The notes beneath the pieces are model-generated. The model saw only the letters and a program-made list of their open reading frames with translations. It did not search any database and had not been told where the DNA came from. Shown piece by piece: positions 16,434 through 20,959 of a stretch of 22,595 nt of DNA. How positions within the stretch are numbered: the first letter of the stretch is position 1; the number at the start of each line of letters is the position of its first letter. The position numbers were made by a program, and so were the translations under genes. Location: positions 1 through 22,595 of IMG/VR virus record IMGVR_UViG_3300021425_000212, one strand, 5' to 3'. Source of the DNA: a virus.

Positions 16434-16659
16434 TCTCTGCCCCCTCCATCTCAACCACTTCAAGGTCTGACATCAGGCAGGTCATCCATAAAGTAAAAAA
16501 CTCATCAATTGGCATATCAACGGTAATGCCATCACAGAAGGTATCGGTGTATACGATGGTGTGCCTTTTATTTTTCAGATCGGATACCGCACCGCCTACC
16601 TCAGCCGTTAAGAGGATGGCGTCACCCTCCGGTAGCTTGACCCCCATCAACTCAATCAT
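16423..16659 (-). CDS. Unknown small protein (78 aa)
   Basis: ATGA overlap with the metallophosphoesterase stop, GTGAGG nine bases upstream. Sequence MIELMGVKLPEGDAILLTAEVG, then DLKNKRHTIVYTDTFCDG, then MPIDEFFTLWMTCLMSDLEV. It looks like a small beta/alpha protein. No family recognised. The close coupling to the enzyme gene might point to a linked function, which is inference. Confidence 0.55.
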   Translation of the reverse strand: MIELMGVKLPEGDAILLTAEVGGAVSDLKNKRHTIVYTDTFCDGITVDMPIDEFFTLWMTCLMSDLEVVEMEGAENVH

Positions 16660-17816
16660 GCTCTTGGCCTCACTGTGACTCTGGCAATCTCACCGTCTTT
16701 TTTATCATAGGTAATCACCTTAGCGCCACGCCTAGACACCCATCCGCCTCTAGCGGCATAGGCGTCTCTACCTGCTAGGGTTGGATGCATCTCCGCAACC
16801 GCTCCGCCATCTTCAACTAGCCGTTCATGGTGGTAGTGGCCTGTTGCTATGTAGGTGTAGTTAGCCTTGCCCCACATCTCCCTGAATCTAGGTTCACTAG
16901 CAAACAACTTGTGCAGGTTCGCTAGCTTTACTTTGTGGCCGTGATGGAAGGCAAGCATGGTCTCGCCATGCAGATAAGCGTAATAAGGAAATTCGTTGTC
17001 GATTACCTCTAGTCGCGGCTCATCTGCAAACAAGTGTTTAACGTATTTTCTGAGCCAGATGCTTCCACTTATGTCGTGGTTTCCCTCTGCGGATACCACA
17101 ACCACCTTGCCAAACTTATTCAACATCATCTTCACGGCTTCGGCCATGACAGACATCGCCAGTTCCACCAGCTTGCCGTATCGGGTATCAGCATCCAGGA
17201 TGTGACCACTGCTCGGGGTCACACTAAGTATTCCATCCCAGTGCAGGAAGTCCCCAAGCTGACAAAGCATCCCCGTACCAGACTTGGGGCTAGCCTCAAT
17301 CATGTCGTGAATTGAATTGAGGAATACGTCACGGGCTATCTCGACATTCCAGTCATCACCGGTCTCGGCCTCCCATGCATACATCCCTAAGTGGAAGTCG
17401 GTAATCGTAAGTAGAGACAAGAGATCCTCATCAACCTCTTTTACAGCTTTGCTTGGTTTAAACGGCTTGATGTTTTCTATCGTTTTATCTAGCCGCTCGC
17501 AGAGTATTTCAAACTGGCGTTGCTCATCTGTCTGAGACTTTACCCACTGCCTGACAGGGTTTCCGTTCTCATCGTAGAAGGTGGACACGCCCTTAATCTT
17601 ATGGCCGTCCGGCACTGGATGATGCCAGTCATTTTCTGGGCTGTAACCTTGTCTAGCCGCTTTAGCCTTAACCTCTTGCATCGCGCTCTTGAGAGTGTGA
17701 TCTGACAGCCCCGCGTGTTTAGCCGCCTTCCTTGTACTCATTCCCTGACAAACAATTAAGTCTACTGCTAGACGTTGCCTATCTGATGCACAAAATCTAT
17801 GTAACGGATGCTCCAT
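16656..17816 (-). CDS. Metallophosphoesterase with N-terminal helix-turn-helix (386 aa)
   Basis: Calcineurin-type metallophosphoesterase. Metal-binding motifs in order are DFH (140-142), GDFLHWDG (188-195), GNHD (245-248), HHGH (291-294) and GHYHH (326-330). They make a complete two-metal site. Residues 20-50 (GMSTRKAAKHAGLSDHTLKSA) look like a helix-turn-helix, a layout common in large phage proteins of this type. The substrate is unknown: DNA/RNA nuclease or nucleotide/phosphoprotein phosphatase are all possible. GGGGGA precedes the ATG, and it overlaps the NinB-like gene by 20 bases. Confidence 0.88.
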   Translation of the reverse strand: MEHPLHRFCASDRQRLAVDLIVCQGMSTRKAAKHAGLSDHTLKSAMQEVKAKAARQGYSPENDWHHPVPDGHKIKGVSTFYDENGNPVRQWVKSQTDEQRQFEILCERLDKTIENIKPFKPSKAVKEVDEDLLSLLTITDFHLGMYAWEAETGDDWNVEIARDVFLNSIHDMIEASPKSGTGMLCQLGDFLHWDGILSVTPSSGHILDADTRYGKLVELAMSVMAEAVKMMLNKFGKVVVVSAEGNHDISGSIWLRKYVKHLFADEPRLEVIDNEFPYYAYLHGETMLAFHHGHKVKLANLHKLFASEPRFREMWGKANYTYIATGHYHHERLVEDGGAVAEMHPTLAGRDAYAARGGWVSRRGAKVITYDKKDGEIARVTVRPRA

Positions 17817-18252
17817 TGGTTTCCCCCTTGAGCTTCATGTACTCTGAGTCTATTGGACAGGTAAGGTTTACGCCGTGGTCTAATGCCCAGCTTTGCACCT
17901 CATCCATGAACGCCATCATCTCGCCACGGCCTAAGCCGCTAGTCTCTCTCACCTGTGCGGGTATGACGGTTTTGCCAATTACTCGATCTTCAGTTCCAAG
18001 AAACTTGTACTTCAGAAGCTCTTTCATTTTTTCTTCGGTTATGTCTGCTCCCTTGCTTAAAAAATGCTCTGACATCTCTCTGCACCAAACGTGAAATAAA
18101 CTGTTCTGTGAGAGCGACCTTTTGTGTTGGTATCGACTAACCTTCCATTGCACCGGATAGTCCCAATCCCAATTATCGCTTAACCAATTCTCAAAGAAAA
18201 CAAGCCTTTCCGTGATTTGGCTAGGGTTATTTATCATCCAAAACTCAGACAT
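17797..18252 (-). CDS. NinB-like recombination protein (151 aa)
   Basis: Likely single-strand DNA-binding recombination accessory protein in the lambda Orf/NinB class. Key pattern: KRSLSQNSLFHVWCREMSEH (compare RSLDQNRKLW in lambda NinB), then a helix, then GRGEMMAFMDEVQSWALDHGV, then YMKLK near the end. I chose ATG 18252, with AGGGAG just upstream, because the longer frame starts at a TTG (18267). The lambda match is partial. Confidence 0.6.
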   Translation of the reverse strand: MSEFWMINNPSQITERLVFFENWLSDNWDWDYPVQWKVSRYQHKRSLSQNSLFHVWCREMSEHFLSKGADITEEKMKELLKYKFLGTEDRVIGKTVIPAQVRETSGLGRGEMMAFMDEVQSWALDHGVNLTCPIDSEYMKLKGETNGASVT

Positions 18253-18490
18253 CGCACTCCCTCTCAATCAGAATATCTAAGTAGTGCCGCGCCTTTCTTA
18301 AATCCTCAACGCCGCCTTTATTTTTATAGCGAGAGACATATTTGATAATGCAATGCTCACACGGCCCAAGGTCATTAGCCAGCGCATACTCAAGCGGCCC
18401 TATTGCCATATTCTTATAATGCTCCCCGCCAACCTGTATCTGCATTGCCGAGATGGTTAAATCCTCTGTAATAAGCAAGTTCTCCCGCAT
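18245..18490 (-). CDS. DUF3310-type protein (81 aa)
   Basis: A small phage protein of a family often called nucleotide-kinase-like (DUF3310), without proven catalysis. The signature is clear: QVGGEHYKNMAIGPLEYAL, then GPCEHCIIKYVSRYKNKGG, then LRKARHYLDILIE. The ATG at 18490 has TGGAGG seven bases upstream. A second ATG at 18445 has no ribosome binding site, so the longer form is preferred even though it overlaps the upstream gene by 77 bases. Confidence 0.88.
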   Translation of the reverse strand: MRENLLITEDLTISAMQIQVGGEHYKNMAIGPLEYALANDLGPCEHCIIKYVSRYKNKGGVEDLRKARHYLDILIERECDV

Positions 18491-18746
18491 TCTCTGACCT
18501 CCATTTTTTAGTGATTAGCTTTCTGCGTGATGACGCCGGTACATATCGGTTATGACCTTTCTGATCGCTGGTAGTACGCATGATAATGTCTTTGTCGTGC
18601 ATGATCTCAATGCACTTAGCCGCCCTGTTTGCTGACTCCTTTGTCCTGTTACAAAAGTCAGAGCGCGTAAACGGAACGCCTGATCTGAACATCTCGGTTC
18701 TGCAAAACATGGCGATAACATCGCTTAATGGTTTTTGATTATTCAT
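18414..18746 (-). CDS. Unknown, likely winged-helix-type DNA-binding protein (110 aa)
   Basis: Starts with ATGA overlapping the helicase stop. The middle (FTRSDFCNRTKESANRAAKCIEIMHDKD then IIMRTTSDQKG) resembles a small winged-helix: a helix pair followed by a wing-like basic strand. No specific family recognised. The last 25 residues overlap the DUF3310 gene in another frame. A partner role for the replicative helicase is possible from position only. Confidence 0.5.
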   Translation of the reverse strand: MNNQKPLSDVIAMFCRTEMFRSGVPFTRSDFCNRTKESANRAAKCIEIMHDKDIIMRTTSDQKGHNRYVPASSRRKLITKKWRSENAGELAYYRGFNHLGNADTGWRGAL

Positions 18747-19690
18747 ATTTCTAAGAGCAATGCTCTCCCATTTCTGGTTTTTTTAAATGCCCTTCCATTG
18801 GCCGCGTGTAAACCTATCGGCCCCTCAAATGGCGCGTTTCTCTGTTTTGCAACAATCAGCTTTAGGTCATAGCCATTTTCTATGTCATCAGTCTCTCTAT
18901 CCGTCAGCGGATAGCCATATACCTGCTTCTCTAGCGCCTGCCTCCTAGCCTTGTTATGCCATACAATCATTAGTAGATGCGCCTGATCTGTAATCGTGCC
19001 TCCGCCTCTGACATCAAAGCGGGTCGGTATGTACTCATCGCCCCCGCGCTCTGGCTTCCTAACGTGATGCACAACAGCAATATGAATATCCAGCGCCTCA
19101 GCCAATCCCATAAGCTGATTAAAAAACAGCCTCTCACGCTGTATATCCTCCGTTACTCCAGTAAATTGAAGGTTATCAATCGCCACAACCTTACAGCCTC
19201 TCTTTGCCATTGCAACGATAGCGCCTAGACACTGAATAGGCTGAACGCCACCCAAAACCCTATACCAATAGATGCGGTCTTTTGCCCAATCAGCAAACCG
19301 TCTGCCGTACTCAGGACTAGGGGTGTCCGTTGCGCCCGATTGCATACACATCATTTTAGCGGTGTCTTTAACTGACATCTCAAATGACGCTAAACCAACC
19401 TTTACCTTTGATGCGGCCCAGACTAAGCACTGACTCAATACTGTGCTTTTTTGATGGCCGTTAATGCCTGCCCAAACTGAGACCTCTCCCATCCTCAATC
19501 TGACAATATCGCTAGTCTCTGCCCAAGGAAGCTGTATTCCTGTCTGCGTTGGGTTCATCCCTAGATGCTCTAAGAAGTCATCTTTAAAGCTCTCAATCCC
19601 TACAACGTCCAAGTCCTCAACCTGACTGTATACCTGCTGTAAATCCTTGTCTGTAAAGTCCTCGACCTCTCTCTGCTGAATTACATTCAC
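18743..19690 (-). CDS. Replicative helicase, DnaB-type RecA-fold ATPase (315 aa)
   Basis: DNA-unwinding motor at the phage fork. The Walker A-like loop is GINGHQKST (75-83), where the usual Gly before the Lys is Gln. SFEM (Glu104) is the DnaB-type catalytic Glu region, VVAIDNLQ (168-175) the Walker B region, HIAVVHHVRKP (203-213) the H2a region, and DVRGGGTITDQAHLLMIVW followed later by AKQRNAP (281-287) matches DnaB motif H4 and its arginine finger. The start is a GTG at 19690 overlapping the initiator stop (GTGA). It is shorter than bacterial DnaB and lacks a full N-terminal domain. Confidence 0.85.
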   Translation of the reverse strand: MNVIQQREVEDFTDKDLQQVYSQVEDLDVVGIESFKDDFLEHLGMNPTQTGIQLPWAETSDIVRLRMGEVSVWAGINGHQKSTVLSQCLVWAASKVKVGLASFEMSVKDTAKMMCMQSGATDTPSPEYGRRFADWAKDRIYWYRVLGGVQPIQCLGAIVAMAKRGCKVVAIDNLQFTGVTEDIQRERLFFNQLMGLAEALDIHIAVVHHVRKPERGGDEYIPTRFDVRGGGTITDQAHLLMIVWHNKARRQALEKQVYGYPLTDRETDDIENGYDLKLIVAKQRNAPFEGPIGLHAANGRAFKKTRNGRALLLEI

Positions 19691-20304
19691 CTGATAAATT
19701 CTCCCTTATTGTTTTCTTGTTTTGGAAATACTGACTTCCAGCCGCATTCTATCGCCATGTCTACGCATCGTCTTTGTTCAGCATGACTTAACGGCTTTAA
19801 CTTGTTAGCGACTAACGCTAGAGACCTGTCAGTAGTCGGCCCCTTAAACTTCTTTCGGTACTCAACCCAGTCTTTCCAGACCTCTGTATCAACCTCCTCC
19901 GGCGGCCTATAACGGCTACGCTTTCCCTTTGGTGGTTCTTTTGATGGTTCATTGATGGTTAGAGTCCCAATATCGGGTCTATCATTATGCCCAATATCGG
20001 GTCTATCATCGGCCCTATATTGGTACTTCTGAATAAGCCCGATGTCGGTACTAACGGACAGGGTGTAGACGGTAGACTTAGAAAACCTGCGGGTCTTAGT
20101 AATTAGCCCAAGCGCCTCAAGTTTCTTTAAGCCAGCAACTACGCTCTTTCTGTTAGCACAGCTTCTAGCGCAAATATCATCATAGCTAGGCCAGCACTGA
20201 TTATCTTCGTTAGCCCTATCCGCCAAGGCAATGAGGATGGCTTTCTGTGTGCTGGTGATTCCTCTAACGTGATTCAGCGCCCAATTAACAGCCGCTATGC
20301 TCAC
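19687..20304 (-). CDS. Replication initiator with winged helix-turn-helix (205 aa)
   Basis: Probable origin-binding protein, placed directly before the helicase as O precedes P in lambda. Residues 15-83 form a HTH_36-type winged helix (GITSTQKAILIALADRANED, then CWPSYDDICARSC, NRKSVVAGLKKLEALGLI). Residues 86-115 are a linker whose DNA holds four iteron-like repeats; the protein reads DRPDIGHNDRPDIG there. The C-terminal part (EVDTEVWKDWVEYRKKFKG) may contact the helicase. The start is a GTG that overlaps the primase-like stop (GTGA), with GGAGG seven bases upstream. Confidence 0.75.
   Translation of the reverse strand: MSIAAVNWALNHVRGITSTQKAILIALADRANEDNQCWPSYDDICARSCANRKSVVAGLKKLEALGLITKTRRFSKSTVYTLSVSTDIGLIQKYQYRADDRPDIGHNDRPDIGTLTINEPSKEPPKGKRSRYRPPEEVDTEVWKDWVEYRKKFKGPTTDRSLALVANKLKPLSHAEQRRCVDMAIECGWKSVFPKQENNKGEFIR
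19966..20051. repeat. Four iteron-like repeats in the initiator gene (candidate replication origin)
   Basis: On the plus strand, CCCAATATCGGGTCTATCAT occurs twice exactly (19966-19985, 19990-20009). Two weaker copies follow, CCCTATATTGGTAC at 20013-20026 and CCCGATGTCGGTAC at 20038-20051. Start-to-start spacing is 24, 23 and 25 bases, about two helical turns. Each core is an imperfect palindrome (CCCxATATxGGG). The third copy is in a different codon phase, so the DNA, not the protein, is what is kept. Lambda places its origin iterons inside gene O in the same way. Confidence 0.7.
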
Positions 20305-20708
20305 TTAGACGCCTCCGCGATTACCCTAGCGGTAAATCCGTTAGCTTTCCCTCCGGCTTTTAAAGCCCTTGCATACGCCTGCTTATCGGCTTGAGTAAGC
20401 TGTTTACCCGTACTCTTAGCGTACTCAGCAAACTCCACAATGTAATCCTCAACCCTGTCGTCCCTCTGACGCCTTGGCCTTCGGTATCCATCGCTAGGAA
20501 AAAGAGCAGGCCAGCTTAATCCTATAGCGGTGAGAACATCTAACGCGCTACAGCCTGACCAACACTTTAAAAGAACCTTTCCGTCTGTTGTCTCAGTCAC
20601 CCTTAATGATGGGCTTTTATCGTTATGGCTTGGGCAGAGACACGCCCAACTGTTTTTGCTTACCTGCTTAGAAAATGCAACACGCTCTAAAATGTCTTGG
20701 GCTGACAC
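20301..20708 (-). CDS. CHC2-type primase zinc-finger protein without TOPRIM (135 aa)
   Basis: Zinc-binding domain of a DnaG/T7-type primase. The motif is CPSH (residues 25-28), then NDKSPSLRV, then LLKCWSGC (C49 and C53), the viral form with CxxxC in the second half. After it comes SALDVLTAIGLSWPALF and a basic helical C-terminus. No TOPRIM catalytic domain follows, so it is not a complete primase by itself. It may act with the helicase or a host primase. The start is a GTG with GGGGGA just upstream. Confidence 0.8.
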   Translation of the reverse strand: MSAQDILERVAFSKQVSKNSWACLCPSHNDKSPSLRVTETTDGKVLLKCWSGCSALDVLTAIGLSWPALFPSDGYRRPRRQRDDRVEDYIVEFAEYAKSTGKQLTQADKQAYARALKAGGKANGFTARVIAEASK

Positions 20709-20750: not shown

Positions 20751-20772
20751 GCCCCCTACTGGGGGCTTTTTT
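20751..20772 (+). terminator. GCCCCC-TACT-GGGGGC hairpin plus T6 at the end of the regulator gene
   Basis: Perfect six-base-pair stem with a four-base loop, followed on the plus strand by TTTTTT: a textbook rho-independent terminator in the plus direction. On the minus strand the stem lies over the last codons of the regulator and its TAG stop is in the loop. There is no T run after it in that direction. Whether plus-strand transcription reaches it is unknown. Confidence 0.7.
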
Positions 20773-20959
20773 CTCCCAGGAATTCAGACAGGCTAACCCC
20801 TAACGCTTCACAGAGCGCCTGCATGGTTGCTAACTTAAAATCCGCCTGCTGACGCCATCTTGTCACCTGACTAGGCCGAACATCAAGGTGCTTTGCCAGA
20901 TCGACGCACTTGATGGCTTTAGCGGATTGGATTTCTCTTAAACGATTTCCGCAGTGCAT
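20756..20959 (-). CDS. Cro/XRE-type helix-turn-helix regulator (67 aa)
   Basis: Small DNA-binding protein. Residues 19-38 (VDLAKHLDVRPSQVTRWRQQ) are a helix-turn-helix, followed by LATMQALCEALGVSLSEFL, the usual XRE fold ending. The ATG overlaps the previous stop (TAATG), and the nearest Shine-Dalgarno (GAGGAT) is far. It lies within the replication operon rather than opposite to it, so it resembles a Cro- or CII-type early regulator more than a divergently transcribed repressor. The gene ends in a hairpin. Confidence 0.8.
   Translation of the reverse strand: MHCGNRLREIQSAKAIKCVDLAKHLDVRPSQVTRWRQQADFKLATMQALCEALGVSLSEFLGEKSPQ

Follow-up and report, generated by a model that had tools for sequence, protein, structure and literature searches.

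According to our analysis, the repeats at positions 19963 to 20052 of the window, i.e., the whole 22,595-nucleotide stretch of viral DNA from IMG/VR record IMGVR_UViG_3300021425_000212, are very probably the site where replication of this phage starts, and they lie within the gene of their predicted cognate initiator (19687 to 20304, minus strand). We regard it as highly probable that the repeat region is a lambda-type replication origin embedded in the gene of its own initiator, for the most part within the linker codons. The lambda-type features found are iterons within the initiator gene, four inverted repeats of about 18 bp at distances of 24, 23, and 25 bp, an O-like initiator with a predicted N-terminal DNA-binding domain (HTH_36, PHROG, and structural model), and type-specific co-divergence of the two. 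In-gene initiator origins are already well known from lambda, P22, and SPP1, and the type specificity of lambdoid origins is likewise established. Beside the iterons lies a further series of short repeats, which recurs in the initiators of numerous phages that are only distantly related and may mark the place where the DNA opens.

The repeats comprise two copies of the exact 20-mer CCCAATATCGGGTCTATCAT, at 19966 to 19985 and 19990 to 20009, and two weaker cores at 20013 to 20024 and 20038 to 20049. The initial annotation had described them as near-palindromic cores spaced by 23 to 25 bases, and both descriptions were borne out, the copies being best described as four near-palindromic 18-bp dyads whose distances, given above in ascending coordinates, read 25, 23, and 24 bp in the order of the coding (minus) strand. 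In this order, iteron 1 (20035 to 20052, AGTACCGACATCGGGCTT) and iteron 2 (20010 to 20027, AGTACCAATATAGGGCCG) each have five of nine symmetric pairs, iteron 3 (19987 to 20004, AGACCCGATATTGGGCAT) has six, and iteron 4 (19963 to 19980, AGACCCGATATTGGGACT), which abuts the box array described below, has seven. Translation also confirmed the shift of reading frame noted earlier: both exact copies are read as DRPDIG, the third copy from the low-coordinate end, which is iteron 2, is one base off the codon phase and reads QYRA, and the fourth reads TDIG in the first frame again. When the protein was kept fixed and the synonymous codons alone were redrawn (synonymous null), the pairwise identity among the four 18-mers, 13.0 of 18 on average, was reached in none of 2000 redraws (null 9.15 ± 0.83), and their dyad symmetry, 5.75 of 9, in 4 of 2000 (null 3.98 ± 0.52), while a null with free spacing of 22 to 27 bp gave 0 of 200. 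These results agree with the earlier claim that selection acts on the DNA. No further exact core was detected elsewhere in the 22.6-kb window. The GC skew, which had been proposed as a check, turned out to be uninformative and carried no origin signal, its sign being the same nearly throughout the window, without a minimum at the repeats. The iterons do not fit an origin of the iteron plasmid class (RK2, F, R6K): such origins have direct-repeat iterons and a monomeric Rep and usually lie outside the gene, with DnaA boxes, whereas the iterons here are dyads inside a gene.

The initiator gene encodes a 205-amino-acid O-like replication initiator composed of an HTH_36 winged helix, a disordered linker, and a helical C-terminal domain, with matches to Pfam HTH_36 (E = 6.7e-15) and to PHROG replication initiation/O-like families (best E = 1.4e-23). 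In the AlphaFold2 model, residues 1 to 85 form a confidently predicted winged helix, and linker residues 87 to 130, mostly with a pLDDT of <50 (predicted disordered), are followed by the helical C-terminal domain. The iterons and boxes are encoded mainly within the linker codons which, as far as the model indicates, are the part of the initiator with the least protein constraint. Residues 52 to 64 (codons at 20113 to 20151, minus strand) are deemed the putative recognition helix on the basis of a helix in the model and of covariation; among relatives, the beginning of this helix, here NRKSV, changes together with the iteron sequence. A sequence search of solved structures with the initiator gave no match. 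In a fold search of solved structures, generic winged helices were the nearest, none at E ≤ 0.001, and included transcriptional regulators of the CodY and MarR types without a significant E-value; among predicted viral proteins, the fold matches were phage helix-turn-helix and O proteins.

The initiator gene overlaps its two neighbors by four bases each. At its start lies the gene for a Zn-ribbon (CHC2-like) primase fragment (20301 to 20708, minus strand; PHROG DNA primase, E = 1.3e-16; Zn_ribbon_DnaG, E = 4.7e-5, slightly short of the curated cut-off), and at its end the gene for a DnaB-like helicase (18743 to 19690, minus strand; Pfam DnaB_C, E = 3.2e-6; PHROG primase/helicase, E = 4.8e-31), an order kept in all 24 relatives checked. 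The primase zinc ribbon is a separate protein of 135 amino acids and the helicase has its own gene; the arrangement looks like that of a primase-helicase divided in two, with the initiator in between. The replication operon also contains a gene for a NinB/Orf recombination mediator (17797 to 18267, minus strand), after which comes a DNA repair exonuclease-like gene (16656 to 17816; PHROG 704). Upstream of the primase fragment, a 67-amino-acid Cro/C1-type HTH protein is encoded (20756 to 20959, minus strand), which is 33 to 49% identical in relatives, its neighbors being mostly better conserved.

Relatives were collected from viral contigs by a protein search (24 loci), an alignment search (45 loci), and a DNA pattern search, which gave a few more; L-numbers such as L001 and L014 denote the loci compared in this analysis. 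L081 was rejected as a relative, since its 22-base pattern is there by chance and lies outside any initiator, and no prophage relatives of this exact initiator were found among the genome contigs searched. The array occupies the same position in about 36 distinct genes including that of the window, i.e., in about 35 relatives, with three to four dyads each at nearly fixed distances. Repetition exceeds the synonymous null in the window and nearly all relatives, and symmetry exceeds it in the window and most relatives. Counted from the box array, the dyads lie at -18, -42, -66, and -93 in most relatives and at -18, -42, -65, and -90 in the group of the window, and these near-equal offsets hold even where the iteron sequences differ. 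Among relatives, both the protein repeat and the DNA sequence of the repeats change, while the dyads keep their number, their length, and their spacing.

Three broad iteron types were distinguished, namely ACC-RATATN-GG(T/G), found in the window, GTGT..ACAC, and GTAC or GTAT. The types were set from the iteron sequence first and the helix was read off later; helix start and type matched in all 33 of the full-length genes, ACC..GGT occurring with N[RQ]K[ST]V, GTGT..ACAC with TRHAV, and GTAC/GTAT with [ST]RNAV. Distances between helix domains correlate with those between iterons (Mantel r = 0.61, p = 1e-4, unchanged with the C-terminal distance partialled out), whereas distances between C-terminal domains do not do so significantly (r = 0.15, p = 0.08), the p-values being derived from matrix permutation, which corrects only partly for shared ancestry. 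A direct case of exchange is provided by L001 (window type) and L014 (GTAT type), for which identity amounts to 92.0% over the primase, 91.1% over the boxes and C-terminal domain, and 90.7% over the helicase; between these 91 to 92% flanks, the helix domains are 61.0% identical and the iterons 47.8%, and the right-hand junction is the iteron/box border. At the sequence level, the helix domain and the iterons travel together as one cassette and, along with C-terminal swaps elsewhere, the L001/L014 swap shows that the initiator gene is built of exchangeable pieces. The origin proposed in the initial annotation is thus supported by sequence evidence, as the dyads persist across relatives, their sequence tracks the recognition helix, and both move as a cassette. 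Loci L053 to L057, L061, L062, L064, and L078 share the helix/iteron/box layout and keep the downstream helicase, with unrelated C-terminal domains (RWREFWDLYPSSKNKKK type and others).

The AACC box array (19927 to 19962, minus strand, CTAACCATCAATGAACCATCAAAAGAACCACCAAAG), which was absent from the initial annotation, follows the repeats directly and is a candidate opening or helicase-loading element. It consists of three AACCAYCA boxes right after iteron 4: box 1 (19953 to 19960, AACCATCA), box 2 (19942 to 19949, also AACCATCA) at a step of 11 bp, and box 3 (19930 to 19937, AACCACCA) at a further step of 12 bp, all on the minus strand. In comparisons between iteron types, codons for the same residue are identical in 2692 of 2738 cases (98.3%) within the array, the corresponding figures being 38% for the helix domain and 44% for the part beyond the array. 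In several relatives box 3 is shifted by one base, so that NHQ or NNQ is read rather than EPP; both observations indicate that the constraint on the array acts at the DNA level. The array is T-poor on the coding strand and has a single orientation in all HTH_36 genes read. With about 40% GC it is not strongly AT-rich, and its duplex stability falls in the 6th to 9th percentile around the window copy and reaches the 33rd within the genes of some relatives; it is not a classical melting region. The duplex beside the repeats is thus only mildly weak, and the constrained, T-poor box array lies where an AT-rich unwinding region would be expected.

AACC-type boxes also follow the iterons in the initiator genes of isolated Pseudomonas, Stenotrophomonas, Acinetobacter, Psychrobacter, and Vibrio phages. 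A DNA-only pattern scan of viral contigs for three copies of GAACCRTCA returned at least 120 stretches at a spacing of 11 to 12 bp, and 11 at 14 to 15 bp. Among the matches listed, 80 loci were read, which gave 57 distinct arrays located at least 80 codons into a forward open reading frame (ORF) and distributed over the three frames as 36, 15, and 6. Iteron-like repeats, mostly 22 bp apart, lie upstream in 50 of the 57 (≤1% of the synonymous null). HTH_36 was found in 51 of the 57 ORFs, a number that does not count independent motif origins since the array-bearing genes are distant homologues; this kinship points to conservation within a broad family and not to repeated invention. At least three of the six ORFs without HTH_36 resemble simple-repeat proteins. 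In bacterial and archaeal genomes (257 Gb), 69 stretches match the pattern. Most of those with an 11-bp step resemble prophage initiators, largely beta- and gammaproteobacterial, with further examples from Campylobacter concisus and an Opitutaceae bin, whereas the (12,12) cases are mostly ordinary EPS-repeat proteins; a 12-bp spacing alone is therefore not diagnostic, and 11-bp steps together with iterons are. A synonymous EPS-pattern scan was discarded as an initiator finder, since it retrieved mostly unrelated EPS-rich proteins, and was used only for the high-GC GAACCRTCC variant. The high-GC phage initiators L253, L261, L298, L306, L317, and L341 carry GAACCRTCC / GAACCTTCT box variants with iteron-like repeats upstream. 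A BLAST search of one box array against named phages returned two records only, and the iteron analysis of seven HTH_36 phages against the same kind of null gave no signal exceeding it in two of them, Itty13 and Y8A. The evidence appears to us about evenly balanced on the wider proposal that, in phages of different bacterial phyla, HTH_36 initiator genes generally have a second origin element in the form of a GAACC(A/G)TC(A/C) array at 11 to 12 bp, in fixed orientation directly after the iterons. A conserved partner would read one strand of this array, whichever helix/iteron cassette is present, and the array would mark origin opening or helicase loading. In open-access papers, we found no earlier account of AACC box arrays as an element of general occurrence, and a search for the GAACC 9-mer and its relatives returned unrelated papers only; since the search covered open-access papers, priority is uncertain.

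The constraint on the arrays, the pairing of helix and iterons, their exchange as a cassette, and the constancy and frame-independence of the boxes are features of the compared sequences, while for binding, opening, and helicase loading we infer the following course by analogy with lambda. Dimers of the initiator's winged-helix domain would bind the four 18-bp dyads and a folded nucleoprotein complex would form, which would strain the DNA on the C-terminal-coding side, so that the duplex opens within the AACC boxes. The C-terminal part of the initiator, the neighboring phage helicase, or a host factor would then keep one of the two strands open there, and the helicase would be loaded. Since the boxes remain constant while the helix domain changes, a reader other than the iteron-specific contacts is suggested, which is probably the C-terminal part of the initiator, the neighboring phage helicase, or a host protein. 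Moreover, since the array is only a mildly unstable duplex, sequence-specific reading seems to carry more weight than ease of melting.

The dyads might instead be an in-gene operator through which the initiator represses or brakes its own operon, with the origin located elsewhere. Binding of palindromes by winged-helix dimers is a common trait of repressors, and the fold search placed transcriptional regulators of the CodY and MarR types nearest among solved structures; we nevertheless consider this improbable in view of four phased copies located deep inside the gene, always beside the box array and in replication operons, and of a layout that matches the annotated origins of lambda and P22. 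Origin and autoregulation, in any case, are not mutually exclusive. An explanation at the protein level, according to which the linker peptide (DRPDIG, EPSxEPS) is selected or made by slippage and the DNA repetition is secondary, could draw on the repetitive linker peptides and on the EPS repeats with (12,12) spacing in unrelated proteins. It is very hard to reconcile with the excess over the synonymous nulls, the out-of-frame iteron 2, the predicted disorder of the linker, and boxes that occur in all three frames, the 11-bp step shifting the frame from box to box. We give equally little credence to the dyads acting as mRNA hairpins that control translation or stability: the transcript does fold better than dinucleotide shuffles (z = -2.9), but any dyad array has hairpin potential, no Rfam match was found, the boxes are essentially unpaired in the predicted fold, and the dyad sequence tracks a DNA-recognition helix.

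For the box array only, a further explanation has to be weighed, in which it serves as a double-stranded site for the helicase, a loader, or a host protein and not as a single-strand opening element. A spacing of 11 to 12 bp is about one helical turn, as expected for proteins on one face of the duplex, and the DNA of the array is only mildly weak. The single orientation and the T-poor strand in all HTH_36 genes read suit a strand-specific reading, and V. cholerae ori2 and RK2 are precedents for short repeats bound as single-stranded DNA (PMC10797057); we regard a duplex site as plausible but less likely than not. The probable lambda-type origin offers a sequence-only route to replication origins in many uncultured phages, and the natural series of initiators and matching sites is one from which a recognition code could be read. 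With constant, frame-independent boxes, moreover, what recognizes the opening region of a phage origin becomes directly testable via synonymous recoding.

Comparable layouts occur in several known systems. In-gene repeat arrays followed by AACC-type boxes are present with HTH_36-related initiators in the Acinetobacter AB1, Vibrio H20, Pseudomonas phi2, and Stenotrophomonas CUB19 phages, which differ from the window in iteron sequences, box variants, and C-terminal domains; the stretches examined contain no annotated origin. SPP1 oriL has direct repeats and an unwinding element within gene 38 (PMC6316719), and is like the window, by description of its layout, in being an in-gene origin with repeats and an opening element; unlike the window, SPP1 has a separate loader, gp39, and a second origin, oriR. 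In V. cholerae ori2/RctB and the DnaA-trio, short direct repeats such as 5'-(G/A)ATCA lie beside the initiator sites and are bound as single-stranded DNA (PMC10797057, PMC10316083). The window shares with them the short direct repeats next to initiator sites, with arrangement and strand bias as what is seen here, while the initiators are unrelated and the box GAACC(A/G)TCA and its 11- to 12-bp spacing differ.

The closest likeness is to lambda and P22. In lambda, O dimers bind the iterons and an adjacent 40-bp A+T-rich region opens (PMC5043065), of which O proteins bind the single-stranded DNA (PMC7466680). The likeness to lambda O stated in the initial annotation holds: the origin lies inside the initiator gene, between the parts encoding the DNA-binding and C-terminal domains, and its four annotated 18-bp dyads in mid-O are 20, 24, and 23 bp apart, compared to 24, 23, and 25 bp in the window. 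P22 likewise has its origin inside its initiator gene, gene 18. The phage DnaB-like helicase that follows the initiator in the window is found in P22 and not in lambda, while the preceding primase fragment sets the window apart from both. Direct repeats of the ACAAAAGACA type lie right after the iterons in P22 (L411:3841-3985) and lambda (L102:520-560) and are a possible counterpart of the AACC boxes. In both phages, as in the window, a strand-asymmetric tract comes right after the last iteron; the iteron sequences differ and the tract is A-rich where the window has AACC boxes, which indicates that the box array is not universal.
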